Shown here: positions 26,442-41,324 of the stretch, one piece after another
Numbering within the stretch: the first letter of the stretch is position 1
Layout of the letters: each line of letters opens with the position of its first letter
Assembly: GCA_040218145.1 (NCBI GenBank)
Contig: JAVJQK010000080.1
Location: 1 to 46,237, forward strand
Length of the DNA stretch: 46,237 nt
Source: Sandaracinaceae bacterium
GTDB taxonomy: Bacteria; Myxococcota_A; Polyangia; Polyangiales; Sandaracinaceae
Direction: 5' to 3'
Program-made: the position numbers and the translations under genes
The notes under the pieces: model-generated
Databases searched by the model: none
What the model was told of the DNA's origin: nothing
Seen by the model: only the letters and a program-made list of their open reading frames with translations

Positions 26442-26476
26442 GGCGCCAGCCAGTTGCGAGGAGGCCTGGGAGGCCT

Positions 26477-26563
26477 GGGGACGCTCTTCGTCATATCGTC
26501 ATTCGCGAAACGCATCGGGATCATGGCGGTTCTCCCAATGACGATATGACGATCAGCGTCCCC
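26477..26563 (+). repeat. REP87 palindromic repeat, copy C
   Basis: Full 87-base copy. The left arm has TCATATCG instead of the usual TCTTATCG, so it pairs better with the right arm; the right arm is the GATCAGCGTCCCC subtype. It lies between the toxin gene stop (26612) and the start at 26441. Confidence 0.92.
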
Positions 26564-26611
26564 GTGCTGCTCGCCCATGCTGCTCTCCGCCGAACGCCGC
26601 GGAGCCGGGAG

Positions 26612-27436: not shown

Positions 27437-28227
27437 AGGTCGGGCTCCACTTCGTCGTTCACGAGGACCCGCCATCGGGCGTCGAGAGGCGCGTCGGTGC
27501 TATCGCGCGCGCTGGTGAGGGGTGTGGGCAGGAGACGCTCGCCGGCCAGCTTCTTGGCCAGAGCGTCGGCGAGCTTCGACTCCCCCACGAGGTCGAGCAG
27601 CCAGCCGAGGCGCTGGACGTCGCTTCGCGCGACGCGGTCGGCGCCCGCAACGAGCTCGTCGGGATCGATCTTGTCGGCGAGCTCGGAGAGCATCGTCGCG
27701 ACGTTGTTCCAGTGGCCGCACGACGCGGGGAAGCGAGCCATGTCGAAGGCCGTCGTCTCCGGCGTCGAGACCACCATGGTCCCCGTCTCGGTCTGCACGC
27801 GCTCGGTCGCTGCGCCCTCGACGAGGTTGCTAACATGGAACTCGACCCGCACCCGCCCGACCTCGACAGCCCGCTCGACGGCGTCGGTGATGACCTGGAA
27901 CGCCATCGGCTGCTGATGCCCCGCACCGTGGAGCGCGGCGGCGCTGAGCAGCCCGACATAGTATCGGCGTCCTCGGTGGCGCATGAGGTCGTCGATGAAC
28001 CAGCTCGCCGGTGGACTCCCGGCCGAGCGGTACTCGCGAGGCACCACCACGAAGAAGTCGCGGCGTGGACTCACGATTATGCCGTTCTTCTTGAGGCGGT
28101 AGAGCGTCATCTTGATCGCCGCGTCGGAGGCGTCGGTCACGCCCTCCGCGTCTCGGCGCGAGAACGCGTACCGCCCGTCCTCCGGCAGCCTCTCGATCCA
28201 AGCGTAGAGGGTGCCCGGGCTCGACAT
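27433..28227 (-). CDS. abiEi: AbiEi-type antitoxin / autorepressor
   Basis: The 264-residue protein pairs with the AbiEii gene immediately downstream. Its N-terminal 80 residues form a winged-helix domain (DASDAAIKMTLYRLKKNGII, then SPRRDFFVVVP). The central part carries YYVGLLSAAALHGAGHQQP, the conserved hallmark of the antitoxin domain, followed by a beta region and an alpha C-terminus. In characterised AbiE systems this protein binds inverted repeats in its own promoter and represses the operon. ATG at 28227 is preceded by GAGAGG on its strand. A near-palindrome lies 20 bases upstream. Confidence 0.9.
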   Translation of the reverse strand: MSSPGTLYAWIERLPEDGRYAFSRRDAEGVTDASDAAIKMTLYRLKKNGIIVSPRRDFFVVVPREYRSAGSPPASWFIDDLMRHRGRRYYVGLLSAAALHGAGHQQPMAFQVITDAVERAVEVGRVRVEFHVSNLVEGAATERVQTETGTMVVSTPETTAFDMARFPASCGHWNNVATMLSELADKIDPDELVAGADRVARSDVQRLGWLLDLVGESKLADALAKKLAGERLLPTPLTSARDSTDAPLDARWRVLVNDEVEPDL

Positions 28228-28247
28228 CGCTCAACCTCTCGCAAAAA

Positions 28248-28264
28248 GTAACGCGACGCGTAAC
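28248..28264 (-). promoter_or_regulatory. Candidate AbiEi operator
   Basis: GTAACGCGACGCGTAAC is nearly symmetric (GTAACGCG / CGCGTAAC around a central A) and lies 21-37 bases upstream of the antitoxin start. AbiEi antitoxins repress by binding inverted repeats at this kind of position. The A-rich AAAAAGTAAC beside it lowers melting stability. The assignment is inference from position and symmetry. Confidence 0.4.
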
Positions 28265-28320
28265 GTTTCGCAACAGAGTCAGCGCAGGCGAGGGTGCGGC
28301 CAGATGGCAGACGGCGCCGC

Positions 28321-28407
28321 GGGGACGCTCTTCGTCTTATCGTCATTCGCGAAACGCATCGGGATCACGGCGGTTATCCCAATGACGATATGACGATCAG
28401 CGTCCCC
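28321..28407 (+). repeat. REP87 palindromic repeat, copy D
   Basis: Full 87-base copy with standard left arm and GATCAGCGTCCCC right arm; centre GGGATCACGGCGGTTATCCC includes the inner GGGAT/ATCCC stem. It lies upstream of the AbiE operon and beside a solo arm at 28440. Confidence 0.93.
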
Positions 28408-28439
28408 GGGGCTGGCTCAGCACGCCCGGTGCTGGCTGA

Positions 28440-28465
28440 CTGACGATATGACGATGAGCGTCTCC
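28440..28465 (+). repeat. Solo right arm of REP87
   Basis: CTGACGATATGACGATGAGC followed by GTCTCC matches only the right arm of the repeat. No left arm precedes it; the 33 bases between copy D and this arm contain a duplicated GCTGGCT. It may be a leftover of a second adjacent copy. Confidence 0.75.
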
Positions 28466-28496
28466 GGTGCTGCTGCACCCCCGCTGCCGCTGCCCT

Positions 28497-29693
28497 CTAC
28501 CTCGCGACGACTTCGATGTCGCGTAGGAACGTGGCTCGGTAGTCGCTGTCGAGCTCGAGCGACGGCTGGCTTTCTCCTCTGATCCAGAGCGCGGAGTCGT
28601 GGCCACACTGGGTCGATCCGCTACTCGGCCGGTCGGCGTAGCCGATGACGTAGGGAACGCCGTCGGCGACCGCGAGACCGCTGACGCCCCCGCAACGTGG
28701 AGTGGAGAGCATCTCGAGCGCACCGTCGGTTCCGTCAGCGTTGGCCGTCCAGACGATGGGCGTCTCTTCATCGTCCACTCTACCGGTGTACGCGACGTAG
28801 ACCCTACCGCCCTGGACTTCGATGTGGAACGCGAGGCTGGAGTAGCCGCCGACGCTCGGACCGCCGACGATCTCGTGCCGCTCGAAGGTCGTGCCATCTC
28901 CCGTCCACATGACCCGCGTGCCACCGTCGGTACCGAACGCATAGAGCCGCGAATCATCGCTGGTCAGCGCATACACGGCGCTCGACGCGCCCGTGACCGG
29001 GAGGGCGACGACTTCGGTGCCGTCGATCCAGAGACTGGCGGGGATGTCGCCGTCTCGCTCGTACATCGCGATGTATGTGCGGCCGTCGAATCGTTCGATG
29101 TCTCCCGCCTCGTACTGGTCCTCGTCCGTAGGGGACTCGGGATGGCGCAGCCACTCGCTCCCGTTCCAGAAGAGGATCCAGGAAGAGCGCCCGCCTCGGA
29201 GATACCGGCCGGCGCGCAGCCACCCATCGGTCGTGTGCGCAAACGCCTGGTCGAAGTAGCTGTCCCCGCTGTCGACAACGGGCTCGACGAACCCGGCAGC
29301 TCGCGTGGTATCGGTGGTCTCGTCTACGGTCCAGACCACCCACTCCGAGCGCTGCCGCCCGAGGACTTCGACATGGCTGTCGTCGACCACCCGCACGACC
29401 CTGACCTGCGAATCGTCGGTCGACAGCGTGCGACGCTCGCCATTCCACCAAAGCGTGGCGTTGTCCGTAGTCGCGCTGGTTTCGACGTCCGCCACGATGA
29501 ATATGTCGGCCTCGGGGAGGGGACGGCCCGCATCCCCGAGCCCGGTGTCTGCAAGCCCACTGTCGAAGAGAGCCTGACCCGTGTCCGGCTGGCCTGAGTC
29601 CACCGGCGAAACCGTGCTCCCGTCACATCCGGCGACAGTGAGCAAGGCGAGAACCGCGGGACCACGAAGGCGGGAGGGGCTGTATGCGCGCAT
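28497..29693 (-). CDS. Lipoprotein, probable beta-propeller
   Basis: The 398-residue protein starts with a lipoprotein signal ending VLALLTVAGC and an Asp/Gly/Ser/Pro linker containing DTGQALFDSGLADTG. The body alternates short hydrophobic strands with acidic turns and several W-N/DG turns (LWWNGERR, ILFWNGSEW, SLWIDGTEV, VMWTGDGTT, PIVWTANADG), which look like six or seven propeller blades. The ATG at 29693 is chosen for the signal peptide. It resembles a group of Myxococcota surface lipoproteins of unknown function. The 3' end faces the solo REP87 arm. Confidence 0.65.
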   Translation of the reverse strand: MRAYSPSRLRGPAVLALLTVAGCDGSTVSPVDSGQPDTGQALFDSGLADTGLGDAGRPLPEADIFIVADVETSATTDNATLWWNGERRTLSTDDSQVRVVRVVDDSHVEVLGRQRSEWVVWTVDETTDTTRAAGFVEPVVDSGDSYFDQAFAHTTDGWLRAGRYLRGGRSSWILFWNGSEWLRHPESPTDEDQYEAGDIERFDGRTYIAMYERDGDIPASLWIDGTEVVALPVTGASSAVYALTSDDSRLYAFGTDGGTRVMWTGDGTTFERHEIVGGPSVGGYSSLAFHIEVQGGRVYVAYTGRVDDEETPIVWTANADGTDGALEMLSTPRCGGVSGLAVADGVPYVIGYADRPSSGSTQCGHDSALWIRGESQPSLELDSDYRATFLRDIEVVAR

Positions 29694-29819
29694 GACGCGT
29701 AACCTCTCACACCCGGGAACGCCCGACAACACTTGCCCCTCATCGCCCAGGTCTTCCGAGACTCGCAGCCGAGCCTCTCGGAGTGCGGTTGGGGTGGCCC
29801 ATTGGGCGCGGGTAGAGGA

Positions 29820-29949
29820 GGCGCCGGGTCCTAGGGGGGCAGCGTTGTTCAGGAGGACGGCGGCGCCGCGGGGCAGGAGGACGACGCGGCGCCGCGGGGC
29901 GCTGCGGGGCGGCGCCGCGGGGCGCTGCGGGGACGACGCGGGGCGCTGC
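29820..29949. repeat. Low-complexity GC-rich repeats
   Basis: GGCGCCGCGGGG, GGGGCGCTGCGGGG and close variants are repeated several times in direct and inverted order just before REP87 copy E. There is no gene. Slippage or gene-conversion footprints around the repeat are the simplest explanation. Confidence 0.6.
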
Positions 29950-30036
29950 GGGGACGCTCTTCGTCTTATCGTCATTCGCGAAACGCATCGGGATCATGGC
30001 GGTTATCCCAATGACGATATGACGATCAGCGTCCCC
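29950..30036 (+). repeat. REP87 palindromic repeat, copy E (overlaps 3' end of HIT gene)
   Basis: Full 87-base copy with GATCAGCGTCCCC right arm. Bases 30003-30035 also encode the last ten codons and stop of the minus-strand HIT gene, so the repeat supplies the C-terminus of that protein. Confidence 0.93.
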
Positions 30037-30608
30037 GGTGCTGGGACCGTCGCGTCACGCCGCAGCGCCTCCTCGAGGCCGGGGCGGAGGCGGTCGAGGC
30101 CGCTCTGCTGCACGAAGGCGGCGACGATGGCGACGTCGGTGGCCCGGGCGAGGAGCGGGAGGATGTGCCGGGCGAAGGGGTCGTCGGCGCCGGTGGCGAG
30201 CGGGCTGGGCTGGGCGAGGTAGTTCCCCTTGCTGGGGATCACGTGCCGGACGCCGCCGCGCGGGTCGTCCATGTCGCCGCGGTAGCGCGGGATGACGTGC
30301 ACGTGCAGGTGCATGACCGTCTGCCCGGCGGCCTCCCCCGCGTTGAAGCCGACGTTGTAGCCGTCGGGCCTGGGCGCGAGCTCGCGGTCGAGCTGGGCTT
30401 TGACCTCGTTGACGGCGTCGAGCAGCGCGCGCTGCTCCTCTCTGGTGGCGTCGAACCAGGTGGCGACGTGCCGCTCGGGCACGATGAGGGTGTGGCCGGG
30501 GGAGACGGGGTAGCGGTCGCGGAACGCGAACACGAGCGCGCCGGACCAGGTGCGGTCCTCGGCCGGGAGCGCGCAGAACGGGCAGCGCTTGTCGCTGGGG
30601 GACGACAC
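30003..30608 (-). CDS. HIT-family nucleotide hydrolase/transferase
   Basis: The 201-residue protein shows a CPFC pair near the start (Cys9/Cys12), the PVSPGHTLIVP segment and the histidine triad HLHVHVIPRY with His100, His102 and His104. HIT proteins hydrolyse or transfer nucleoside monophosphates from dinucleoside polyphosphates or adenylated substrates. The conserved part ends at about residue 145; an extension of about 45 residues follows and its last ten residues (GTLIVISSLG) are encoded by the REP87 repeat, which also gives the stop. The original end of the protein was therefore probably replaced or extended. Cytoplasmic; no signal peptide. Start ATG at 30608. Confidence 0.85.
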   Translation of the reverse strand: MSSPSDKRCPFCALPAEDRTWSGALVFAFRDRYPVSPGHTLIVPERHVATWFDATREEQRALLDAVNEVKAQLDRELAPRPDGYNVGFNAGEAAGQTVMHLHVHVIPRYRGDMDDPRGGVRHVIPSKGNYLAQPSPLATGADDPFARHILPLLARATDVAIVAAFVQQSGLDRLRPGLEEALRRDATVPAPGTLIVISSLG

Positions 30609-30687
30609 CGCGGGCGAGGCTAACCCGCGTGGGGTGTGGGGGTCGATCTACAAGGCAGGTTGCAGCAGGAATGCTCGAGCGTGGGGT

Positions 30688-30774
30688 GGGGACGCTCTTC
30701 GTCTTATCGTCATTCGCGAAACGCACCGGGATCATGGCGGTTATCCCAATGACGATATGACGAAGAGCGTCCCC
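30688..30774 (+). repeat. REP87 palindromic repeat, copy F
   Basis: Full 87-base copy with the GAAGAGCGTCCCC right arm, which pairs almost perfectly with the left arm (one internal mismatch). It lies in the divergent region between starts at 30608 (minus) and 30946 (plus). Confidence 0.93.
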
Positions 30775-30945
30775 AGTGCTGCTGTGGCGAGTGGGGCGGC
30801 GTCCAGCTCGACGGGTGCGCCTGAACCACGGCCTTCGCTGGCCGCAGTGCGTGGCATGCAGGGACGCACCCGCGCGGGAGCCGACATTCATCATTGTGTA
30901 GAGCGGCCGCGGCTGACAAGCTCGCTCACGTCTCTGGGAGGAACG

Positions 30946-31491
30946 ATGAGCACGCCTCCGACCGAGTCTCTCGCCGGCGACGAGACGTATCGTCTGCGGG
31001 TGGTCGCGAAGGCCGGGCGATATCGCGAGGCCGACCGGGTCCTTCACGATCTGCGGGTGCGGAGCCGTGGGCAGCGCTCGCGTCGCGCGCGTCATGTCCA
31101 GGTCGTGGCTGCGGTCTCGTTCGCTCTCTTGTGCTTGGCGATCCTCTACCTGGTCACCGCGACCTTCGGAGACGGGATCGACCACTTCGCGCCGCTGTCG
31201 CCGGTCGCCATCGCCGTCGGCGCACGTCTGGGTTGGTGGACCGCCGATGCCGTGCGACGTCTCTTCCCCCGCGAGGTCGAGGTTCGCTTCGAGGGCGCGG
31301 ACGGGGTCGTGTTCGGGGAAGACCGGCTCGGACCGCTGGTTCGGGTCGAAGCGGATCCGGCCGAGAACCTGTTGCGGCTGGAGGGCGAGGACTGGAAGCG
31401 CGAGCTGGTCATGGAGGACCCGGAATCACCGGTGCGGATCGCGGCGCAGCTCCAGGCGGCGGTGTCCCGCAGAAAGGCAAGCCATGAGTGA
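30946..31491 (+). CDS. Two-span membrane protein, unknown function
   Basis: The 181-residue protein has a basic amphipathic N-terminus (RLRVVAKAGRYREADRVL), a membrane segment at about residues 51-75 and a second at about 81-100, with a short loop between. The C-terminal 80 residues are a soluble beta-rich cytoplasmic domain (VEVRFEGADGVVFGEDRLG). GGGAGG precedes the ATG at 30946. The stop overlaps the ATG of a short following frame by ATGAGTGA. No family recognised. Confidence 0.6.
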   Translation: MSTPPTESLAGDETYRLRVVAKAGRYREADRVLHDLRVRSRGQRSRRARHVQVVAAVSFALLCLAILYLVTATFGDGIDHFAPLSPVAIAVGARLGWWTADAVRRLFPREVEVRFEGADGVVFGEDRLGPLVRVEADPAENLLRLEGEDWKRELVMEDPESPVRIAAQLQAAVSRRKASHE

Positions 31492-31651
31492 ACCGATGGA
31501 CCCCTCGGTGACGTCCGCGCCGTCTCGGGAGGCGCTCCCGCTCATTCGTCGAGCTCGTCCGGCAGCGCGGATCCGCGCGCCTCTGTGTGAACAAGTCAAC
31601 CTAGCGTCCCCAGGCGTCTCCCTCGCGCCGGTCACGGAGTCACATCTCTGA
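31484..31651 (+). CDS. Short coupled frame, likely truncated
   Basis: A 55-residue frame starts at ATG 31484 inside the last codons of the membrane protein gene and ends at 31651. Its second half reads through a family-2 repeat arm (31587-31611), so any longer original protein has been cut. It overlaps the convergent minus gene by 20 bases. Probably a relic or not translated. Confidence 0.25.
   Translation: MSEPMDPSVTSAPSREALPLIRRARPAARIRAPLCEQVNLASPGVSLAPVTESHL
31526..31611 (-). repeat. Degenerate composite repeat of family 2
   Basis: The right arm GTGAACAAGTCAACCTAGCG ending in CCCC is intact. The left part (CTCATTCGTCGAGCTCGTCC) is a decayed relative of the GGGGACGATCCTATTCGTTCGTC arm. 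The CGCCTCTGTGTGAAC joint is shared with the copy at 33788-33981. Confidence 0.6.
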
Positions 31652-32189
31652 ATACGGCCCCCCGACAGCCCACCGCTTCCATGGCGTTCTTGACCGAGTC
31701 GGAGACGATGAGACCGATCGGCCACCGGTCGATCCGGAAGAAATGCGCATCCTCCGGCACGGCCGCCCGGTCGAGCACGAGCTTGGTGAGGCTTCGATAC
31801 CAACCGGCTAGATCCGAACGGTGATCGGTCACCTTCCACTTCGTGAAGGTGGATCTCTCCTCGTCAACGCATCTGACCAACCTGAGCGAATGCAAGATCA
31901 CCATGTCTGGCTGCCGCGCTACCTTCACGGGCAGGCATTGGACATCGGAGCTGGCGACTCGCTTCACGGCCTCGGCGAGCTCCGCTGTGGCCAAGGGCCA
32001 CCCCAGACTGGTCATGCTGTACTCGAGAGCGTGACCCGGCTGATGCACCACAGCCTCGACGGGTCCGGGACTGATCGGCCCGGGCGAGCCGAGAATGGGC
32101 TGGTCGCCGTCCGGAAGGAGAACATCTCCAACCTCCCAGCGGCCCGCGAGCGTCATGTCATCGACAAGCCTGAAGTACTTCTTCTTCAT
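31632..32189 (-). CDS. Imm11/DUF1629-like protein (tentative)
   Basis: The 185-residue protein begins MKKKYFRLVDDMTLAGRW and continues with WEVGDVLLPDGDQP, VQCLPVKV and WKVTDHRSDLAGWYRS, a layout I associate with the imm11/DUF1629 family that is very abundant in Myxococcota. Some family members are proposed immunity proteins for polymorphic toxins, but no toxin gene lies beside this one. There is no signal peptide or membrane segment. ATG 32189 is chosen because upstream codons come from a REP87 copy. The family call is from memory of pattern and needs a profile match. Confidence 0.5.
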   Translation of the reverse strand: MKKKYFRLVDDMTLAGRWEVGDVLLPDGDQPILGSPGPISPGPVEAVVHQPGHALEYSMTSLGWPLATAELAEAVKRVASSDVQCLPVKVARQPDMVILHSLRLVRCVDEERSTFTKWKVTDHRSDLAGWYRSLTKLVLDRAAVPEDAHFFRIDRWPIGLIVSDSVKNAMEAVGCRGAVFRDVTP

Positions 32190-32246
32190 GGTGATCGCTG
32201 CTCGAGCGGCGGCTCGCTGAGGTCGGGGCATCCCTCGCGGCGCTGG

Positions 32247-32333
32247 GGGGACGCTCTTCGTCTTATCGTCATTCGCGAAAAGCATCGGGATCATGGCGGT
32301 TATCCCAATGACGATATGACGAAGAGCGTCCCC
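32247..32333 (+). repeat. REP87 palindromic repeat, copy G
   Basis: Full 87-base copy, GAAGAGCGTCCCC right arm, one change in the centre (AAAAGCATCGG). It lies between two minus-strand genes, 13 bases from the stop at 32347. Confidence 0.93.
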
Positions 32334-32346
32334 GGTGGGGGCGGGG

Positions 32347-32868
32347 CTACTCGCAGGCCGGGTCGCGGTCGTCGGACGCGCAGCGCGCCTCTGGGCTCTC
32401 GCACCTCGGCGGCGTCGGGCCGTAGGTTTCGCTGTAGTAGGTAGTCGGGACGAGCTCGATGACGACCTCTTCCTCCGCGGCGCGTCCGGCGCGACAGCCC
32501 GTGGCCATCACGGTGACGCCGTCCCGCTCCAGGAGCGTCGCGACGAAGACGGCCTCCCGAGGGACGGTCTCGGTGAAGGGCCTGAGGCCGCCCTGCTCCG
32601 CGGGCGCACCCTCGAACGTGAAGGCGCCAGCTTCCCAGAAGTCACACGGCTCGACGAGGCCGCTGTCAGCGAGAAGCTCGCCGTCGCCCGACTCGAGCTG
32701 GGCGAGCGCCTCGCGGCAGTTCGTGCCCTCGGCGAACGCCACTACGCGGGCCGATGATGCGTGCAGAAACAGCGCCTCCGTGGGGGACGAGAGGACTGTC
32801 GCCGGCGTCTCCGGGGCGCAGGCGTAGAGCGAGATGACGGCCACCCATGGCAGCGTTGTTTTCGTCAT
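32347..32868 (-). CDS. Small lipoprotein, unknown function
   Basis: The 173-residue protein starts MTKTTLPWVAVISLYACAPE with a lipobox LYAC (Cys17) and should be lipidated after export. The rest has six further cysteines (TNCREAL, EPCDFW, TGCRAG, PRCESPEARC, PACE), which suggest disulfides. GAGGAGG precedes the ATG at 32868. No family is recognised. Confidence 0.65.
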   Translation of the reverse strand: MTKTTLPWVAVISLYACAPETPATVLSSPTEALFLHASSARVVAFAEGTNCREALAQLESGDGELLADSGLVEPCDFWEAGAFTFEGAPAEQGGLRPFTETVPREAVFVATLLERDGVTVMATGCRAGRAAEEEVVIELVPTTYYSETYGPTPPRCESPEARCASDDRDPACE

Positions 32869-33234
32869 GTCAACCTCCTCGCTTGACACCCTACCACCAT
32901 CGCGGGCCGTATCGGGCCTGTTCGTTCGTCGAGCTCGCCCGGCCAGCGCGGGTAGTCTGCACTATCGGGGGGCGGCCGAAGACGACGCGCGCGCTGATGT
33001 ACGCGGGGCTCCGCGTGCCCCACCAGCCGTAGGCGATCACGTCGCCGTGGGCGTGGGTCCGGAAGTGCCGTAGCCGGTCCCGCGGACCATGTCCCAGGAG
33101 CGCGTGTGGGCCTGGTGGGGGCCGGTGGTCGAGTTCGACGATGCGGGTCGCCCAGAGCCCGCGCGACGGAGCCTCTTTACGAGAGCCTTACGTTGGACCC
33201 CCAGCCTGGGGCCGGGTGGGATGGTCCCAGAGCC
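32869..33234. other. Gap with a possible gene relic and a decayed repeat arm
   Basis: The minus strand from about 33157 to 32890 is an open frame without a start. It encodes protein-like sequence (RIVELDHRPPPGPH, then DVIAYGWWGTRSPAYISARV) and ends at a TAG near 32891. It may be the C-terminal remnant of a lost gene. Inside it, CTGTTCGTTCGTCGAGCTCG at about 32918-32937 resembles the family-2 repeat arm. Nothing else is seen. Confidence 0.3.
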
Positions 33235-33774
33235 ATGACTACTTCATTCGGAACCGCCCTTCTCATCATCGCCTTCGCGCTGCCTACGCTCGCCTGCGGC
33301 GGCGAGCCCACGGCAGCCGACAACGCTGGGCCCGCCCACAGCAGCGAGCCCGCGCCAGCCTCGTCTCCGTCGAGCACCAGCGGTCCCGCGCCTGGCGCGC
33401 AGCCGGCGACGCTCACGCCCGTCGCCGACGGGGACTCGATCCCCTTCGAGGTCGAGTCCTCCGAGGCTCGGGTTCGGCCGCCTGGCTCTACTGGCGCGTT
33501 GCTCAGCGCGACCTCCAGCCAGGGCGAGGTCATCGTGCACCTGGATCGCTTCAGCTACTACTGCAGCCCCGATCCCACGTTCACCGCGACCCGCGTCGGC
33601 AACACCCTGCGCCTCAGCCTGGCGCAGCCGGACGCGGCGACCCGCTGCATCAGCGTCTACACCATGGACTTGAGCTTCGGCGGTATCGACCAAGGCGCGT
33701 GGCTCGAGCGGGTCGTGATCGTCGGACCCGACGGCGCCGAACAGCTCGCCGGCGACGTCGTCCGCTCCCGCTGA
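33235..33774 (+). CDS. Lipoprotein, unknown function
   Basis: The 179-residue protein has a lipoprotein signal (GTALLIIAFALPTLAC) and a Ser/Pro/Ala-rich linker of about 40 residues, then a beta-rich domain of about 110 residues with two cysteines (YYCSPD, TRCISV) probably joined. ATG 33235 is chosen because the signal peptide starts there. The stop is 13 bases before a composite repeat. No family recognised. Confidence 0.65.
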   Translation: MTTSFGTALLIIAFALPTLACGGEPTAADNAGPAHSSEPAPASSPSSTSGPAPGAQPATLTPVADGDSIPFEVESSEARVRPPGSTGALLSATSSQGEVIVHLDRFSYYCSPDPTFTATRVGNTLRLSLAQPDAATRCISVYTMDLSFGGIDQGAWLERVVIVGPDGAEQLAGDVVRSR

Positions 33775-33787
33775 GCGCCGGGTTGGT

Positions 33788-33981
33788 GGGGACGATCCTA
33801 TTCGTTCGTCAAACTCCATGCCCGGACCCGGTCTGCGGAGACGCGGCGCTGCGGGACGCTCTTCGTCTTATCGTCATTCGCGAAACGCATCGGAATCACT
33901 GCGGTTGTCCCTATGACGATATGACGAAGAGCGTCCCTGGTGCTGCTCGCCTCTGTGTGAACAAGTCAACGTAGCGTCCCC
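33788..33981 (-). repeat. Family-2 composite repeat interrupted by REP87 copy H
   Basis: The outer ends are GGGGACGATCCTATTCGTTC at 33788 and GTGAACAAGTCAACGTAGCG plus CCCC ending at 33981. They correspond to the reverse complement of the 76-base element at 39225-39300. Between them, REP87 copy H occupies 33853-33937, so this outer element is about 194 bases long. Confidence 0.85.
33853..33937 (+). repeat. REP87 palindromic repeat, copy H
   Basis: Copy of about 85 bases with ends GGGACG and CGTCCC (one base shorter each side) and a varied centre (CGGAATCACTGCGGTTGTCC). It sits inside a family-2 element and between convergent gene ends. Confidence 0.92.
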
Positions 33982-34072
33982 GTCGGCGGCGTTCCTCAGC
34001 AGGGAGCGCTGAGGCTGAGCGACGCGCATCGCCGACTGATGGCGGAGCAGCTCGGCCCGTTCAGGTGAGCGA

Positions 34073-34879
34073 CTATCGGAGCTCGACGAGCTCGGACGGG
34101 CCGGTCTCGATGGTGCCGACGCCGGGCGCGAACCAGAACGACCACGCCCCCATCCCGCCCACCTGGGTGACCTCGATCTCGAACGCGTCGAAGGTGCCCG
34201 CGCCCACCGTGCGCCGGCCCTCGCGCGCCACGCGGTAGCGCCAGCTGTTGTCGAACGGCGTCGTCATGCCCGCCGACACGGTCGAGCCGGCCTGGCGGCT
34301 GGTCCACGTCTGGCCCACGTAGAGCTCGGCCCCCATCGTCCTGAACTCGGGCCGGTAGGTCGTGCGGGTCGAGAATGGAGTGGACACTCCATCGCGACGG
34401 GTCGTGCCGCTGGTCTCGCTCGAGATCGCGTAGCTGCCCGTCTCATCGCAGCGCGCGTGACCGACCGACGTGTAGGTCTGCTCGTACCCGTCCCCTCGGT
34501 TGGAGCCCGTCGACTCCGACGTGTAGCTCACCGAGTCACCCGTCTGCGTCCACTCGGTGATCTCACTGGTCGACTCACTGGTGGACGTGTCGGTGACCGT
34601 GCGAAAGCGATAGCGCGCGCCCAACCGGACCCCGCTGAGCTGGCACCCGAGCGGTAGGCTCGGCCCCGCGTCGATTCCCGCGTCGAGCCCTCCGTCGACG
34701 CCGCCATCGGGTGCGCTCGCGTCCGGGGCGCCGCCGTCGGTCGTGCCGCCACCGTCCGTCGCGCCGCCGCCATCCCCGGGGCGGTCCACTCCGGCGTCGC
34801 AGCCCTCGCAGAGCCCATCGGCCGCGTCACATCCGGCGAGGACGAGGAGCACGAGGAGCGGCCAGCCGAGGCGAGTCAT
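34073..34879 (-). CDS. Lipoprotein with Asp/Gly-rich linker
   Basis: The 268-residue protein has signal WPLLVLLVLAGC (Cys17), then a linker made of DGG/DAG units to about residue 72. The domain after it (about 190 residues) is Thr/Ser/Tyr-rich and beta-like, ending in FWFAPGVGTIETGPSELV, similar to the closing strand of lipoprotein domains that read 'WFAPGVGxV'. It is exposed outside the inner membrane. No enzyme motif. ATG 34879 directly precedes the signal. Confidence 0.7.
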   Translation of the reverse strand: MTRLGWPLLVLLVLAGCDAADGLCEGCDAGVDRPGDGGGATDGGGTTDGGAPDASAPDGGVDGGLDAGIDAGPSLPLGCQLSGVRLGARYRFRTVTDTSTSESTSEITEWTQTGDSVSYTSESTGSNRGDGYEQTYTSVGHARCDETGSYAISSETSGTTRRDGVSTPFSTRTTYRPEFRTMGAELYVGQTWTSRQAGSTVSAGMTTPFDNSWRYRVAREGRRTVGAGTFDAFEIEVTQVGGMGAWSFWFAPGVGTIETGPSELVELR

Positions 34880-34928
34880 GGCGTGAGCTACGCCCGACGG
34901 CCCCTGACCTTCCCTGCCGCGGACTCGC

Positions 34929-34959
34929 GGGGACGATCCTATTCAAACATTCGAACTCC
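34929..34959 (-). repeat. Solo arm of family-2 repeat
   Basis: GGGGACGATCCTATTCAAAC then ATTCGAACTCC matches one arm of the family with a few changes. It lies just upstream of the plus-strand gene at 34977 and within its likely promoter region. Confidence 0.65.
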
Positions 34960-34976
34960 ACGTGATAGAGGGCGGC

Positions 34977-35522
34977 ATGCCCACGTACTACGAGCTCGAG
35001 GTCTCGCTCTACGACCTGCAGCCGCGGATCTGGCGGCGCTTTCTGATCCGCGACACGGCCACGTTCGCCACGCTCCACGAGGCGATCCAGCTGGCGTTCG
35101 GGTGGGAGAGCTGCCACCTGTGGGAGTTCCGGCGGCCGACCCGCGGAGGGGGTCCGATCGCTGGGCCGCCGGACCTGGGCTTCGGCGAGGAGACGCCGGA
35201 CGCGGCCAGGGTGAAGCTGTCCGCCTTCTTCGGGGAGGCGGAGCGGTGCGACTACATCTACGACTTCGGCGACGACTGGCGGCACGACGTGAGGCGCGTG
35301 GCCGTGCAAACGGAGTCGAAGGCGTTCCAGCGCCGGCTCCTCGCGGGTGAGCGCGCCGCGCCGCCCGAGGACTGCGGCGGCTGGCCGGGGTACGAGCGCG
35401 TCGTGGAGTTCGCCGAGACGGGCGAGGACCCGTTCGGCGACGGAGACCTCGAGAGCTGGCTCGGCGACTGGCGGGCCGACGCGTTCGACCTCGCCGCGGT
35501 GAAGGCGGCGTTCGATCGTTGA
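34977..35522 (+). CDS. PRiA4_ORF3-like protein (IS1096 passenger TnpR family name)
   Basis: The 181-residue protein matches the family by YYELEVSLYDLQPRIWRRFL, then LHEAIQLAFGW, CDYIYDFGDDWRHDV and the closing GGWPGYERVVEF. Such proteins were named after an IS1096/plasmid gene, but most are chromosomal and of unknown function; no recombinase active site is present, so this is not evidence of a transposon. ATG 34977 is preferred over GTG 34962 because AGAGGGCGG precedes it. Bases 35331-35406 inside it are copied downstream at 35654-35726. Confidence 0.85.
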   Translation: MPTYYELEVSLYDLQPRIWRRFLIRDTATFATLHEAIQLAFGWESCHLWEFRRPTRGGGPIAGPPDLGFGEETPDAARVKLSAFFGEAERCDYIYDFGDDWRHDVRRVAVQTESKAFQRRLLAGERAAPPEDCGGWPGYERVVEFAETGEDPFGDGDLESWLGDWRADAFDLAAVKAAFDR

Positions 35523-35555
35523 GCGCCGATGGGTAGAAACTCCAGGCGGCGATGT

Positions 35556-35642
35556 GGGGACGCTCTTCGTCTTATCGTCATTCGCGAAACGCGGCGGGAT
35601 CATGGCGCTTCTCCCAATGACGATATGACGAAGAGCGTCCCC
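35556..35642 (+). repeat. REP87 palindromic repeat, copy I
   Basis: Full 87-base copy, GAAGAGCGTCCCC right arm, centre GCGGCGGGATCATGGCGCTT (subtype shared with copies J and partly K). It lies 33 bases after a plus-strand stop. Confidence 0.93.
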
Positions 35643-35653
35643 CGTGCTGCTCG

Positions 35654-35726
35654 GCGCCGGCTCCGCGGGTGAGCGCGCCGCGCCGCCGAGGACTGCGGCG
35701 GCTGGCCGGGGTACGAGCGCGACGTG
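35654..35726 (+). pseudogene. Duplicated internal segment of the PRiA4_ORF3-like gene
   Basis: CGCCGGCTCC-GCGGGTGAGC and the following bases repeat 35331-35406 in the same orientation. Two deletions (two bases and one base) distinguish the copy, so it is not coding. It lies exactly between REP87 copies I and J. Confidence 0.9.
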
Positions 35727-35733
35727 GCGAGGC

Positions 35734-35820
35734 GGGGACGCTCTTCGTCTTTTCGTCATTCGCGAAACGCAGCGGGATCATGGCGCTTCTCCCAATGACG
35801 ATATGACGAAGAGCGTCCCC
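35734..35820 (+). repeat. REP87 palindromic repeat, copy J
   Basis: Full 87-base copy differing from copy I at only a few bases (TCTTTTCG in the left arm). It ends about 100 bases before the next plus-strand start. Confidence 0.93.
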
Positions 35821-35924
35821 CGTCTGCTCCCCCACGCCTTCAGACGCGGATCACCGCGATCGGAGAAGGCGCCGAGTGACGCGCTGCCCTCGACGCCGCT
35901 CCGGGTCACGGCTAAGCCCGCGGC

Positions 35925-36593
35925 ATGGGGACCTGGGCGGGAGCGTTCATCGAGAACCCGAGGCGCGCTGACCTCGGCGAGGTTCTCGCGTCCCACCATG
36001 TCGCGCTCGAGGGCTCGGCGGACGCAGAGTGGATCTACGTGCTCGCCGAGACGTCCTTCGCGAGCCTCGAGGCGCCGGCGTTCGCCGAGCGTCTGTCGCG
36101 CGAGCTCGGCGGGAAGGTCATCGCGTTCTTCCTCCAGAGCACGGCCAGCGTCGAGGAGATCTTCGTCTACGACGCGGGCGAGCGGGTGCGTCACCTCTCG
36201 TTCTCGATGGACGAAGGGGGCTGGCTCGCGCACGAAGGCGACGTGCAGGACTGGGAGGCGGCCTACTTCTTCGAGGAGGGCCATGGCACGCGTGACGGCG
36301 AGGGGTGGCCCCTGAACCTCGACGACGAGATCGGCGACGACGAGCGCGCCGCGTACGAGGCGGCGCGCGAGACCGGCGACGCGACGCCCGTGCTCGAGCT
36401 CCTGCACGTCGGCTCGGGCTGGGGCCTCTACCGCCTCGCCGAGCATTTCGGGGTGCGCGACGGCGAGCCTCACGCGATCTACCAACCGCCCAGCAACCGG
36501 ACCTTCCGCTGGAAGACGTACGCCGTGGTCGCGCTCGTGGTGCTCTTCTTCGTCGGCATGTTCCTGCTCGGGGCGCTGAGCGGGCCCGGCTGA
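35925..36593 (+). CDS. Tail-anchored hypothetical protein
   Basis: The 222-residue protein is mostly soluble. Residues 1-125 resemble an alpha/beta domain (ADAEWIYVLAETSF, GGKVIAFFLQST, FVYDAGERVR), and acidic residues dominate to about 190. A single membrane helix (YAVVALVVLFFVGMFLLGAL) at about 195-217 is followed by only five residues, so it should be a C-terminal anchor with the bulk in the cytoplasm. No family recognised. ATG 35925. Confidence 0.6.
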   Translation: MGTWAGAFIENPRRADLGEVLASHHVALEGSADAEWIYVLAETSFASLEAPAFAERLSRELGGKVIAFFLQSTASVEEIFVYDAGERVRHLSFSMDEGGWLAHEGDVQDWEAAYFFEEGHGTRDGEGWPLNLDDEIGDDERAAYEAARETGDATPVLELLHVGSGWGLYRLAEHFGVRDGEPHAIYQPPSNRTFRWKTYAVVALVVLFFVGMFLLGALSGPG

Positions 36594-36759
36594 GCGACAG
36601 CCTCTCGTATCTTCGCGCCGAGGCTGAGGCTCGCAGCGGCAGATCCCGTCCGTCTTGTCGGTTCGGCCGCACGGCCGGGGCCCGCGCCGGAACCGTCTCC
36701 CCCGTCGGTCATCGGCGCGTCCGCTGGGATGCCGTCCAGGGAGCACGAGGCGGCGATGC

Positions 36760-36846
36760 GGGGACGCTCTTCGTCTTATCGTCATTCGCGAAACCCATTG
36801 GGATCATGGCGCTTCTCCCTATGACGATATGACGAAGAGCGTCCCC
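36760..36846 (+). repeat. REP87 palindromic repeat, copy K
   Basis: Full 87-base copy, GAAGAGCGTCCCC right arm, with AAACCCATTGG instead of AAACGCATCGG in the centre. It lies between convergent stops at 36593 and 36870. Confidence 0.93.
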
Positions 36847-36869
36847 CTTGCTCCCGGTGCTGCTGAAGC

Positions 36870-38333
36870 TCAAGGACGATAGACCCAGACGCGGCTGCCT
36901 CTTCGTGGCTGCATGACGACCACTCCGAACCGCGGGTCGTAGTACCCGAAGGCCGGCTCGGAGCGGAGCGCCGGGCCGTCGAAGGCGCGTGTCTGCCACG
37001 ACGCCGTGCTCACGTCGTACTCGTAGACGCGGGTGGCGTCGTGGCCGGGGTGGACGAGCACGAACCGGTCCGCCGCCTCGGCGTAGACGAGCGCGGAGTC
37101 GCTGTCGGAGGCCTGGACCGGCGGGGGGGCGGTGGCCGTCCATTCGTTGGTCTCGAAGCGGTAGAGCCGCGCCCTCGGCGCCCGGCTGATGTAGACGCCC
37201 TGGCCCACGTAGAGGATCGCGTCGTGGGTCGGCGAGTACTCCCCGAGGCCGTCGGGCTGCGGGAACGCGCCGTCCTCCGCGAGGCTTTCGAGGGAGGCGC
37301 CGTCGTTGGGACGGATACGGGTCCAGACCCCCGTGCCCGCGTCCCAGAGGAACATGCCCGTGCCGCCTCTCCAATGCGCCGTCGCGTAGACGAAGCGGGT
37401 GCCACCGACGTGGATGATGGACAGCGCCGCGTTGGACTCGACGGGCGGGGCGCCGACCTGATCGCGGTAGAGCTCCCACCGGTTCGAGTCGAGGTCGAAG
37501 TACACCATCTTCGTGAGGTTCTCGCCCCGGGTGGGCCGCTCCGGCAGGTCCCACGCCCATTGATGCAGGCTCATGCCGAACGGTTGGGCGGCCGCGAAGG
37601 GCCACATGAGCCGGCGGTTGACGGGGTCGTAGTTCAGGGTGTCCCACGTGTGCCAGGGCTCCAGCGGGCCGTGGCCCGGGTCGTTGACCGAGAGATATCC
37701 CTCCGGATGCAGCATCACGTTGTCGCGCCACCAGGTGCGATACTCCTCCGTCTCGGACAGCTCTGCGTCGGTCAGCTCTTCTCCCGCGATGAGCCGCTGA
37801 ACGAGCCGCTTCTGCGCGACGCGAGAGTTGAAGTTGCCGCCCGCGGGGCCGTAGAGCGCCTGCCACGTGTTGCTGCCCAGATGATATTCCCAGACGTCGT
37901 TCAAACGATGAGGGCTGCCGTGGTTGGCGCCGGCGTAGAGCGCGCTCTGGCGGTCCGGCGCGTACGCCATCTGATTGCAGAAGTCCCGCCCTCCGGGCCC
38001 GTATCGGAACCAGTCGTGGTCCTCGTATCCCGCCGGTGGGTGCACCGTCACCGTGGGCAGGTACATCGCGTGGCCGCGGGCCAGCGCGTTGATCTGCGCG
38101 ACGATGTCGGGGACGTCCTCGGGCGTCGGTGCGACCGTCGGGGGAGAGGCCGCGTCCGCGGCGCCGCCGTCCTCCGCGCTCGCATCGATGAGGCCCGCGT
38201 CGCTTCCGGCGTCTTCGATCGCGCTCCCGGAGTCGGAGCCCGAATCCGGCTCGCCGGTGTGCACTTCGTTGGAGTCACACGAGCTCGCTCCGAGAAGGAG
38301 GAGCGCCGCGGCGAACAGTCTCTGCGTGGGCAT
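36870..38333 (-). CDS. Kelch-like beta-propeller lipoprotein
   Basis: The 487-residue protein has a lipoprotein signal (LFAAALLLLGASSC, Cys19) and a long Asp/Ser/Gly/Ala linker. Repeats of the form 'blade strand, then W-x-x-Y/x-L/D' follow: NDVWEYHLGSNTWQALYGP, MVYFDLDSNRWELYRD, MFLWDAGTGVWTRI, RLYRFETNEWTATAP and RVYEYDVSTASWQTR. This is the kelch/galactose-oxidase-like pattern. The last blade ends RVWVYRP at the C-terminus. Catalytic Cys/Tyr residues of galactose oxidase are not evident. ATG 38333. Confidence 0.8.
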   Translation of the reverse strand: MPTQRLFAAALLLLGASSCDSNEVHTGEPDSGSDSGSAIEDAGSDAGLIDASAEDGGAADAASPPTVAPTPEDVPDIVAQINALARGHAMYLPTVTVHPPAGYEDHDWFRYGPGGRDFCNQMAYAPDRQSALYAGANHGSPHRLNDVWEYHLGSNTWQALYGPAGGNFNSRVAQKRLVQRLIAGEELTDAELSETEEYRTWWRDNVMLHPEGYLSVNDPGHGPLEPWHTWDTLNYDPVNRRLMWPFAAAQPFGMSLHQWAWDLPERPTRGENLTKMVYFDLDSNRWELYRDQVGAPPVESNAALSIIHVGGTRFVYATAHWRGGTGMFLWDAGTGVWTRIRPNDGASLESLAEDGAFPQPDGLGEYSPTHDAILYVGQGVYISRAPRARLYRFETNEWTATAPPPVQASDSDSALVYAEAADRFVLVHPGHDATRVYEYDVSTASWQTRAFDGPALRSEPAFGYYDPRFGVVVMQPRRGSRVWVYRP

Positions 38334-38418
38334 TCGTCACGCTGACATGTGCGTCCTCGGTCCGCTGTTTCACTCTCTGCGCGAATCGGCGAGCTCGGGC
38401 AGGTGTATGGGGTCGTCC

Positions 38419-39180
38419 CTACTGCGGGCCGCTTACAAGGCGGCGCCGGCGCTCCTCGGCCTCGGCTGAGCGTCGACTCGGGCCTACGCGGTGGGCTCTC
38501 CACAAGAGGTTGTGAGGGGTCACCGCGGGCGGCACGAACGCCTGCACCGACACGCGATAGCCGCCGGCCTCGAGCCGCAGGGTCCGCTCGGTGTCGATGA
38601 GGGACTCGACGAAGCGCCGCCGGACGTGCGCCTGGGATGCCACGCCCAGGTGGTCGGCCCACGCCCGCGCGGTGTCGGAGAACTCGATGGCGCTCGAGTA
38701 GCAGCAGGGGACGGCGAGCACCCAGGGCACGCTCGCGGCCATGGCCTGGTTCACCACGGCGTCGAAGGCCGGACCGCAGGCGTGGAGGGCGACCACCACC
38801 TCGGCCGCGGCGGGCCATGCGTCCGGGTCGGCCACGTCGCCCTGGCGGACTTCGACCTGCAGGCCGGGTACCCGCGCCACCGCCCGTCGCGCCGAGTCCG
38901 CGCGCTCGGGCTCGCGCTCGATGACCGTCACGTTCGACCATCCCAGCAGCCGCGCGGCCATGAGCCCGACCGGAGCCCGGCCCGCGGCCGCGTCCACCAG
39001 CTTCGGATCCGGACCCGTTCGAGCGAGCGCCGGCAGGATGCCCGCGAGCTGTGGGATCTTCTTGACCTCCTCCGGCCGCAGCGAGCTGTCGGCCCGGGTC
39101 ACGTAGAACGCCCGCAGCGCCTGCTCGACGCTCGCCTCATCGAGGCGAGCCAGGATCTCCGGCGGCGGCGTGTACTTCAT
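38419..39180 (-). CDS. METTL25-like (Methyltransf_32) SAM methyltransferase
   Basis: The 253-residue protein has a Rossmann methyltransferase core: LVDAAAGRAPVGLMAARLLG as motif I region, VTVIEREPERADSARRA with the acidic residue for ribose, and VVVALHACGPAFDAVV followed by VLAVPCCYSS, the signature pair (HACG, PCCY) of this family. The N-terminal 45 residues are helical. The substrate is unknown for bacterial members; RNA and protein have been proposed for eukaryotic relatives. No signal peptide. ATG 39180. The C-terminus is basic. Confidence 0.8.
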   Translation of the reverse strand: MKYTPPPEILARLDEASVEQALRAFYVTRADSSLRPEEVKKIPQLAGILPALARTGPDPKLVDAAAGRAPVGLMAARLLGWSNVTVIEREPERADSARRAVARVPGLQVEVRQGDVADPDAWPAAAEVVVALHACGPAFDAVVNQAMAASVPWVLAVPCCYSSAIEFSDTARAWADHLGVASQAHVRRRFVESLIDTERTLRLEAGGYRVSVQAFVPPAVTPHNLLWRAHRVGPSRRSAEAEERRRRLVSGPQ

Positions 39181-39224
39181 CGGCGGCCCGGAGCATGACC
39201 GCTCTGCGTCCCGAGCGCGAGACG

Positions 39225-39300
39225 GGGGACGCTAGGTTGACTTGTTGACTTGTTCACGCGTGAGAGAGGAGGAGTTTGACGAATGAATAGGATCGTCCCC
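39225..39300 (+). repeat. Family-2 composite repeat, full copy
   Basis: The first arm GGGGACGCTAGGTTGACTTG carries TTGACTTG twice; the second arm GTTTGACGAATGAATAGG runs to the closing CCCC. The two arms are different in sequence and share only the GGGGACG ends. It lies between minus-strand genes (start 39180 and stop 39306). Confidence 0.85.
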
Positions 39301-39305
39301 GGGTC

Positions 39306-40187
39306 TCACGCGGGAGGCAGGAGCCGGGCGACGTCGAAGAGGGTCTCGTGGGCGGGGAGCGCGGGCGTGGGAGCGCTGACGCGGCAGCCGAGCCTGCCGA
39401 GACGGTAGAGGCCGCTCTCGAGGGCGTCGGCGGCCGGCAGCCAGACGCCGTTCGGTCTGGCCCACGCGGCGCGACAGGCAGACTCGGGGAGGCCATCGGG
39501 CCACGCGCGGGGCGCGCCCGCGTCGAATGAGTCGGGAGTCACGGAGACGAGACGTCGACGCGGGACGAACGGGTCGCCATGCAGCGCAAGGTCGGTGAGC
39601 AGATCGTTCAGGTGGAGGACCGACTCGGGGAGGGGCGCGGGGTACATGAGGCTCGGCAGCATCGCGCCGGGCAGCGGCTCGACGGGCTCACGGGCCGCCC
39701 GCTCGTGGAACGCGCGCGGACGTCGCGGCAGGAGCGCCTCGACCCAGACCTTGCGGTAGCCGCTCCCGTCCCGGGCCGCGACGACGACCGTGTTCCAGTC
39801 CGCGCCCGAGGTGACGAAGGTCTGCCTCGGCGCTCGGCCCACTGCGGCGGTCAGGCTCGCGACGAGCTCTCGCCCGCGGTCCGGCTGAAGCTGTCCGCCC
39901 TCGAGCGCGAGCGCGCACTCGGTGTCCAGCGACGGCGCGCGGAGCCAGGTGTGGTCGTCGTAGAGGACCAGCGTCGGCCACGGACAGCGCGCGCGCTCCC
40001 AGGCGATGATGAGCGGCACGGGGCCCTCGACGATCTGCGGCGTGAGCTCGGCGGCGGAAGGATAGGCAGGCGGGGGCTGCGCGTGCTCGGCCTGAGGCCA
40101 GAGCGCGAGGAGCGCGATGACGGCGACCGCTGCGAGACGTCGGAACCGAGCGTCGCTCGTGACCTGACCCATCCAGGACCCAACCAT
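39306..40187 (-). CDS. Secreted hypothetical protein
   Basis: The 293-residue protein has a basic N-terminus and a hydrophobic segment (LAAVAVIALLALWPQAEHA) at about residues 18-36, giving a standard signal peptide. The mature part is Pro/Arg-rich with three Cys residues and no recognised motif. A GRLGCRVSAPTPALPAHE segment closes it. ATG 40187 is the only start compatible with the signal. It is followed by the composite repeat. Confidence 0.55.
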   Translation of the reverse strand: MVGSWMGQVTSDARFRRLAAVAVIALLALWPQAEHAQPPPAYPSAAELTPQIVEGPVPLIIAWERARCPWPTLVLYDDHTWLRAPSLDTECALALEGGQLQPDRGRELVASLTAAVGRAPRQTFVTSGADWNTVVVAARDGSGYRKVWVEALLPRRPRAFHERAAREPVEPLPGAMLPSLMYPAPLPESVLHLNDLLTDLALHGDPFVPRRRLVSVTPDSFDAGAPRAWPDGLPESACRAAWARPNGVWLPAADALESGLYRLGRLGCRVSAPTPALPAHETLFDVARLLPPA

Positions 40188-40245
40188 ACTGCCGCGCGAG
40201 CCGACGTTGGTGAAGGAGGTTCGCTACGATGTGGATCCCTCTCCG

Positions 40246-40274
40246 GAGTTTGACGAATGAATAGGATCGTCCCC
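40246..40274 (+). repeat. Solo second arm of family-2 repeat
   Basis: GAGTTTGACGAATGAATAGG followed by ATCGTCCCC, identical to the second arm of the full copy at 39225-39300. It lies 21 bases from the stop of the DUF2262 gene. Confidence 0.85.
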
Positions 40275-40295
40275 GAGATCGCTCGCGGAGATCGG

Positions 40296-41132
40296 TCAGC
40301 CGGGGATGTCTGCGCCGGTCGGGCCCGACTCGAGGTCTCCTTCGATGAGGATCGAGTGACCGCAGAACAGGTCGCCGTCGTCGTGCCAGAAGGAGAAGCC
40401 GCGGCCCTCTCGCACGCCGAGAGTGGTGAGAGTCATGCGCGACTTGAGCTCGGCCGCGTCGACCGACTCCTCGTCGTCATCGAGCCAGGTGCGGTTCTTC
40501 AGATCGAGGAGCCGCTCGACGGCGTAGTCCTCGATCCTCGCGCGCCAGGTCTCGGCGTCCGCGAGGAGCGCGCGCGCGACGGCCAGCGCCGCTTCGGGCT
40601 GTTCGAGATCGTCGGGCGAGACGGTGAGACGCAGCTTGCGGCCGCACCACTCGATCTCGCCCTGGTACCAGGCGAGCCTGCGGTCGAGGGTCAACGGGCC
40701 CAGGTCCGGGTCCTCGATGACGACGGGCCTGGTCAGCTCGACGCGCATGGCCGCGAGCTCGGCGTCGTCGCTGGCCCCCAGTGGCTTCTCCACCCAGGCA
40801 TGCGGCGCACCCATCTCGTCGTGCTCGAGCAGCCGCGCCTGGACGCGAAGGCACTCGTGCGCTCTCGAGAGCGCCAGCCACGGCGCGAGCTCTTCCCGAG
40901 TCCCACGGCGCAGGAGGTCGAGCCGCGAGCGCCGGAGCTCTCCGCCTGCGGGCTTCCACGCTTCGCAGCTCACCTGCAAGCCCCAGTCGGATTCGTCTCG
41001 GACCCTGCTCAGCGCGCCGCCTCGCGCATCGACCAGGATCTCGAGCACGCATTCGGGCTGCGCGCGGACGTCCCTCTCGATGCGCTCACGGCGGGCGATG
41101 ATGCGCTCTCGCCAGTCGGGGAGTTCGCTCAT
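40296..41132 (-). CDS. DUF2262 protein
   Basis: The C-terminal half of this 278-residue protein fits DUF2262: LTLDRRLAWYQGEIEWCGRK, then RLTVSPDDLEQPEAAL, LLDLKNRTWL and FSFWHDDGDLFCGHSILIEG, ending GADIPG. The family has no known function but the conserved 'W-x-D-D-G-D-L-F-x-G-H' suggests a metal or ligand site. The N-terminal half is a separate charged region (WRERIIARRERIERDVRAQP). There is no signal peptide. ATG 41132. Confidence 0.85.
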   Translation of the reverse strand: MSELPDWRERIIARRERIERDVRAQPECVLEILVDARGGALSRVRDESDWGLQVSCEAWKPAGGELRRSRLDLLRRGTREELAPWLALSRAHECLRVQARLLEHDEMGAPHAWVEKPLGASDDAELAAMRVELTRPVVIEDPDLGPLTLDRRLAWYQGEIEWCGRKLRLTVSPDDLEQPEAALAVARALLADAETWRARIEDYAVERLLDLKNRTWLDDDEESVDAAELKSRMTLTTLGVREGRGFSFWHDDGDLFCGHSILIEGDLESGPTGADIPG

Positions 41133-41161
41133 GCCGAGAGTGTATCCCGTCCGCCGAGACC

Positions 41162-41249
41162 GGGGACGCTAGGTTGACTTGTTGACTTGTTCACACGCGG
41201 ACCTCGCCGGTCCGGCGGCGGAGTTTGACGAATGAATAGGATCGTCCCC
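41162..41249 (+). repeat. Family-2 composite repeat, full copy
   Basis: The first arm GGGGACGCTAGGTTGACTTG and the second arm GTTTGACGAATGAATAGG are identical to 39225-39300, with a longer and different middle (ACACGCGGACCTCGCCGG). It lies between divergent starts at 41132 (minus) and 41325 (plus). Confidence 0.88.
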
Positions 41250-41324
41250 GTGCTCCTTCGCGAGTTGGGCAGATGGGTGGGATCGCCCCCTGGCGTATGA
41301 GGGCGGCTGGGGGGATGATGCGGC

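Follow-up and report, generated by a model that had tools for sequence, protein, structure and literature searches.

A repeat nested within a repeat between two convergent genes

A structure of 194 bases at positions 33788-33981 of the window (the whole stretch of DNA analysed, 46,237 nucleotides of contig JAVJQK010000080.1 from a Sandaracinaceae bacterium) is likely to have arisen by insertion of one repeat into another. REP87, a REPIN-like dimer of the ends of a C122-type transposase gene, would have entered the spacer of an older unit, bounded by ends A and C, that lay between two convergent genes. The predicted genes on the two sides occupy 33106-33774 (plus strand) and 34073-34879 (minus strand). 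The structure opens with GGGGACGATCCTATTCGTTCGTCAAACTCC and closes with GTGTGAACAAGTCAACGTAGCGTCCCC. An earlier note on this DNA had described two repeat ends with a REP87 copy inside, and the sequences that it cited were found in place: GGGGACGATCCTATTC at 33788-33803 and AAGTCAACGTAGCG...CCCC terminating at 33981. REP87 in full spans 33852-33938, with the outermost base altered on both sides (CGGG...CCCT); the BLAST core of this copy (copy H) is 33853-33937, at 94%. The length given in the note, about 194 bases instead of 76-88, was likewise borne out, the other A-C pairs of the window measuring 84, 76 and 88 bases. At up to three mismatches GGGGACGATCCTATTC has seven matches in the window against 0.34 expected. 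Alone, AAGTCAACGTAGCG is weak, with six occurrences in the window against 2.43 expected, a number reached by 8 of 100 shuffles. The pattern GTGAACAAGTCAACN{0,12}TAGCGTCCCC occurs four times in 11.06 Mb, each time on the window's contig, and its reversed control not at all. The parts of the structure are as follows.

33788-33817, plus strand: end A (GGGGACGATCCTATTCGTTCGTCAAACTCC), bounding the outer unit on the left, with the head found in the inverted repeat of the C87 RAYT-type gene
33818-33844, plus strand: left remainder of the A-C spacer, from the spacer comparison; its boundary with the insert is approximate and inferred
33844-33851, plus strand: eight bases common to the left flanks of REP87 on the contig (mean pairwise identity 0.52, null maximum 0.43)
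33852-33938, plus strand: REP87 copy H, an 87-base inverted dimer of end B, REPIN-like; REP87 also flanks the C122 RAYT-type gene
33939-33946, plus strand: eight bases common to the right flanks of REP87 on the contig, from the flank comparison
33948-33954, plus strand: CGCCTCT, right remainder of the A-C spacer, which recurs in the uninterrupted copy at 31528-31611
33955-33981, minus strand: end C, closing the outer unit on the right and akin to the inverted repeat of the C3 RAYT-type gene

Judging from the flank comparison, bases 33844-33851 probably arrived together with REP87. CGC is found on either side of the joints around the insert, and no target duplication can be named at the REP87 joints of 33788-33981.

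The outer unit combines ends of two families

Ends A, B and C were each modelled, and the models were scanned over 544,524 bases of the genome (part of contig C87 being added later); this sequence was chosen around known hits, and the counts refer to it and not to the whole genome. The scan returned 196 monomers, and reversed or complemented models returned none. Besides the interrupted unit, the window holds three uninterrupted ones.

31528-31611, plus strand: A-C unit of 84 bases whose A end has decayed (8 mismatches in 29 positions)
39225-39300, minus strand: A-C unit of 76 bases
41162-41249, minus strand: A-C unit of 88 bases

Of these, the first is most closely related to the right half of 33788-33981. 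A-C pairs occur at four sites in the scanned sequence here and at seven in that of MED-G138, an independently assembled relative MAG (SHBB01000003.1) found by a scan of genome contigs. Seven sites are distinct; the interrupted one is present in both strains and is the only one with REP87 inside. Elsewhere, uninterrupted A-C ends lie 73-91 bases apart. The spacers differ greatly between copies, and for the unit at 41162 (C223:22406 in MED-G138) the left flank is common to the two strains while the spacer and the right flank differ. The earlier note had treated these units as a single family, "family 2". Since A resembles the ends of the C87 gene and C those of the C3 gene, "family 2" in fact joins two transposase-end families, and from its sequence the A-C unit may be read as a hetero-ended unit akin to REP87, built from ends of both.

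End A singlets are common in the scanned sequence. With adjoining sequence, they also form short tandem arrays (C14:137950-138159, C15:23238-23523 and C128:90650-90827).

Three transposase genes carry related ends

The search of this genome yielded three genes for RAYT-type (REP-associated) HUH transposases, on contigs C122, C87 and C3. A REP87-like dimer lies 45 bases ahead of the start of the C122 gene (61401-62294), and REP87 dimers follow the gene. Around the C87 gene, inverted copies of GGGGACGATCCTACCCATCTACCCAAACTC stand on either side, with the head seen in end A. The C3 gene has GGGACGGTGTTTACTTGT on both sides, the right copy running on into the body of end C with its TTGACTTG-type repeats. 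For A and C the likeness is one of family only: the abundant A differs in mid-sequence from the C87 ends, and C differs past the head from the C3 ends.

The same arrangement recurs in relatives. Among 16 transposase loci, defined as matches at E 1e-18 or better (the three of this genome and 13 from relatives of the same order), matching GGGAC-headed inverted repeats stand on both sides at 13, including all three own loci; this count includes L116 and C87, which the script missed through its 400-base limit. Of the remaining three, L115 has such repeats on one side, L117 lies at a contig edge, and L118 is the third exception. Two of the relatives have ends close to A (L114) and ends close to REP87 (L129). 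Three anonymous repeat families are thus linked to three transposase genes in one genome, and since the families are tied to genes, the assignment of enzyme to repeat becomes directly testable.

An IS200 tnpA gene on contig C113 had been a candidate for the cognate enzyme and was set aside once the three RAYT-type genes were found. C-like ends lie about 90 and 440 bases upstream of this gene (C113:225027-225389, L031).

REP87 is dispersed, and its copies on one contig share their flanks

Predicted genes and repeat elements alternate in the window, with some overlap at predicted gene starts. Besides copy H, the following REP87 copies were recorded.

24268-24354, plus strand: REP87
26477-26563, plus strand: REP87
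28321-28407, plus strand: REP87
29950-30036, plus strand: REP87
30688-30774, plus strand: REP87
32247-32333, plus strand: REP87, which alone folds into a near-perfect hairpin (z -9.2)
35556-35642, plus strand: REP87, member of a tandem pair, single in MED-G138
35734-35820, plus strand: REP87, second member of the tandem pair
36760-36846, plus strand: REP87

The REP87-type dimers found number 47, at unrelated places on 15 contigs, and 45 of them are exactly 87 bases long. Their arms are 27-base transposase-end inverted repeats that start with GGGGACG; the GTAG tag is absent at the ends of the listed copies. Because it flanks the RAYT-type gene on C122, REP87 is considered a non-autonomous, REPIN-like unit; having no GTAG-tagged palindromic core, it is grouped here with the TIR families although it functions in the manner of a REPIN. 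Two of the 47 dimers are enclosed, one in the A-C pair and one in another REP87-type element, at C71:3680-3866 (L082).

All 11 copies on the window's contig have a single orientation, and orientation is uniform on 10 of the 11 contigs with at least two dimers (C138 is mixed). About eight bases on each side are common to the copies on the window's contig, with mean identities of 0.52 and 0.53 (null maximum 0.43); beyond that, flank similarity is at background. Flanks are alike within a contig and different between contigs. They fall into a few recurring types, on the left for instance GGGCTACGCCTC or TTGGCGTGCCCC and on the right CCTCCCAGCACTG or GTTCTCAGCTG, and left and right types combine differently from contig to contig.

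MED-G138 offered a comparison of sites. Identity to it is approximately 97.5-99.4% in most long shared stretches and 94-96% in some. The earlier note had proposed looking for the empty site in a related strain; none was present, the MED-G138 locus carrying the filled structure with 3 differences in 194 bases. The presence of the same structure in both genomes rules out an assembly artefact, and indicates that the insertion is probably older than their split. The flanks of all dimers in the scanned sequence of both strains disclosed no clean presence or absence of REP87 at comparable sites: the element is in both strains, or there is one copy against two in tandem (C80:35556/35734, C49, C23/C713 and C130/C86). 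The claim of the earlier note that REP87 is mobile therefore stands on its dispersal and its linkage to a transposase gene, not on an empty site. A C122-type gene was not found in the MED-G138 MAG, which is incomplete (9.1 Mb), although REP87 is present there. The gene downstream of the locus had weak matches only, in 5 of 55 other genomes. Several strain breaks fall 14-16 bases outside a REP87 end (C80:26579, C71:1881, C713:12963 and C138:69828) and others elsewhere.

These data bear on another explanation, namely that REP87 on this contig, the nested copy included, spread with its flanks mainly by local duplication or gene conversion and not by a transposase. The distribution of flank types, the strain differences confined to tandem copies and the shared orientation (11/11 copies here, and the copies on 10/11 multi-copy contigs) agree with it. 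Tandem REPIN arrays with flanks are moreover known in P. fluorescens, according to the portion of PMC3116915 available. Against this explanation, copies lie at unrelated places on 15 contigs, and similarity falls to background more than about 8 bases outside REP87 on this contig. In the IS200/IS605 family, HUH transposition is strand-specific. Uniform orientation would thus be expected from strand-specific HUH transposition as well, and we consider it unlikely that local duplication was the main route.

Compared with element orientation, GC skew gave no indication of leading or lagging strand, being mixed over stretches of insufficient length. No known RNA families were found in 24001-44000. 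Integron attC arrays had been considered because the elements share orientation and alternate with genes; they were dropped, as REP87 flanks a transposase gene and the repeat ends here are presumably unlike attC core sites.

Probable order of events at the nested site

Insertion of REP87 into a pre-existing A-C unit is the best reading because REP87 occupies only one of the seven A-C sites. The earlier note had named regular co-occurrence of the two elements, at many loci, as evidence against nesting; they coincide at one of seven A-C sites, which accounts for one of the 47 REP87 dimers. Spacer matches exist on both sides of the insert. On the right, 33 of 34 bases match 31528-31611, 7 of them past the end motif. 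On the left, the spacer matches that of the MED-G138 unit at 22406, at a level reached by 8 of 5000 shuffles and 11 of 3715 window 27-mers; this significance arose for one of six spacers, once the MED-G138 copies had been added. The left spacer compared with the other five gave values that were not significant (366, 418, 1300, 2376 and 3751 of 5000); summed across the six spacers, the score was reached by 61 of 5000, and the comparison with this genome's three spacers was not significant either (951, 1164 and 387 of 2000 shuffles). With the six A-C sites devoid of REP87, these matches suggest that the outer unit was probably there before REP87 at this site, as the earlier note had proposed. 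The constant length of the dispersed dimers, the transposase genes bordered by matching ends and the second enclosed REP87 at C71:3680-3866 also speak for insertion. Counting against it are the filled locus in MED-G138, the absence of a clean REP87 difference at any site that could be compared, the single significant match among six left-spacer comparisons, the divergence of A-C spacers, the missing target duplication, and the failure to find a C122-type gene in the incomplete MED-G138.

The note had also taken the inserted piece to be REP87 itself, and here we differ: more than 87 bases probably arrived. With the roughly 8 shared flanking bases on each side, the piece may have measured about 103 bases. 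The original unit would then have been about 91 bases long, which falls in the 73-91 range of the other A-C sites.

A further explanation holds that the A end, the REP87 dimer and the C end came to this gap independently, A and C as singlets, no A-C unit ever having been interrupted. A singlets are indeed common in the scanned sequence, A-type and REP87-type elements occur as neighbours without nesting (for instance at C109:3854-4032), A-C spacers are poorly conserved, and none of three matched the left spacer in the first test. This explanation is nevertheless distinctly unlikely, as each of the contig's four C ends has an A end opposite it at 76-107 bases when REP87 is subtracted, the heads pointing outward, the match to 31528-31611 runs 7 bases past the C end, and one spacer match stands at 8/5000 shuffles.

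For the favoured course of events, insertion of REP87 into the A-C unit, we postulate the following mechanism. With REP87 folded as a single-stranded hairpin, the C122 transposase would work on it in trans: the HUH domain would make the cut near the GGGGAC head, and the repeats immediately inside that head would be read by the DnaA-like C-terminal domain; the new copy would then insert along with about 8 flanking bases.

One might go further and suppose that A-C units are mobile too and allow RAYT-type transposases to capture, release or exchange single genes, the contig being a slowly turning array of one-gene cassettes. At C223:30470-29318, MED-G138 has A-REP87-C, a gene, and C-A, that is, A-C units in opposite orientation about one gene. 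We regard such a cassette array as very improbable.

To the right of the element, the window has 60 bases (33982-34042) at a place where MED-G138 has 964 (C223:29312-30276). Within the 964 bases lie an open stretch resembling a gene and, in opposite orientation, a C-A unit; the left break of the difference is the outer end of C. At 46080-46237 the contig stops shortly past a C-type head (GGGGACGCTAGG), in sequence that does not resemble MED-G138; at the matching place MED-G138 has two A-C units in tandem. The contig end there is possibly a repeat-caused assembly break.

A DnaA-like domain and an 8-base periodicity in the transposase ends

Across all 12 aligned proteins, neither the HUH histidines nor the tyrosine varies. 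Matches to the NCBIfam family REP_Tyr_transpos had E values of 4.4e-8 (C122), 6.2e-4 (C87) and 3.8e-9 (C3), all below the family's cut-off. A search of PDB sequences with the C122 protein returned nothing useful. In the model of this protein (mean pLDDT 84.9), residues 1-190 resemble TnpA-REP bound to a REP hairpin (4ER8: Z 16.1, rmsd 2.8, 155 aligned) and residues 210-297 resemble the DNA-binding domain of DnaA (3PVP: Z 11.7, rmsd 2.1, 87 aligned); the DnaA-like domain was modelled in this one protein.

In 15 transposase-gene ends, one from each gene, the 24 bases after the head repeat letters at a distance of eight in 121 of 240 cases (0.50). Other distances tested in the same ends gave 0.22-0.32, and none of 5000 shuffles reached the distance-8 value, which is 0.45 when the three strongest ends are left out; the 15 genes are related, and the control of other GGGGACG places is small (n=6). 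The end A copies of the window are without the periodicity (2/16 and 1/16). The DnaA-like C-terminal domain may read the 8-base repeats of the transposase ends. The available text of the 2018 classification left the target of this domain open (PMC6006769). Pairs of 8-base repeats would thus be a specific prediction for it.

Relation to known systems

One close parallel is with TIRtron/TIRYT elements, in which GGGG-headed inverted repeats flank TnpA-REP-like genes, and some of the repeats form moderately abundant families in dimers or clusters (Di Nocera et al. 2013, PMC3733652, from the part of the article at hand). Like these, the transposases here are TnpA-REP-related, with an HUH motif and one catalytic tyrosine, and their genes are bordered on both sides by inverted repeats and not by tagged REPs. 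The GGGGWSAS motif, given in that part of PMC3733652 for some TIRs and not as a requirement, accommodates GGGGAC, but position 7 is G here and A in the motif. The same portion of PMC3733652 makes no mention of hetero-ended units or nesting. CGTC-tagged REPs had also been a candidate; their stem, loop and tail, as described in the available part of PMC3733652, do not fit.

Subclass 2.1 of TnpA-REP, equated with TIRYT, comprises long proteins with a C-terminal domain like the DNA-binding domain of DnaA (Quentin et al. 2018, PMC6006769, in the text available). The C122 protein, as modelled, shares this DnaA-like domain, and from the domain layout we infer that the transposases here belong to subclass 2.1. 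The available portion of PMC6006769 reports no REP-like sequences near subclass 2.1 genes, whereas here REP87-type dimers flank one such gene and are abundant in the genome.

In P. fluorescens SBW25, REPINs are inverted dimers forming long hairpins, of three kinds, each adjacent to a RAYT gene of its own; they also form tandem arrays with flanks, and clusters are read as REPINs inserted into or beside REPINs (Bertels and Rainey 2011, PMC3116915, from the sections available). REP87 is likewise a long-hairpin inverted dimer of constant length between genes, linked to its own RAYT-type gene (C122), but it has no GTAG-tagged REP core. With IS200/IS605 elements (IS608, ISDra2) the transposases here share the HUH Y1 fold; unlike those elements, REP87 and the A-C units are gene-free, and the transposases are RAYT-like and bear a DnaA-like domain in addition. 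As far as the available part of PMC3116915 goes, nesting of REPINs, their tandem arrays with flanks and the pairing of each REPIN kind with one RAYT were already known. Set against these descriptions, the present locus adds a hetero-ended unit, three end families within one 194-base structure, an abundant REPIN-like repeat linked to a transposase with a DnaA-like domain, and ends with an 8-base periodicity.

Other repeats in the window

Two further repeats were seen in the window: an array of 41-base tandem repeats holding the palindrome TGTGCGCGCACA, at 18326-18633, and a direct repeat of 289 bases with 98% identity between its copies, at 19654-19942 and 20614-20902.
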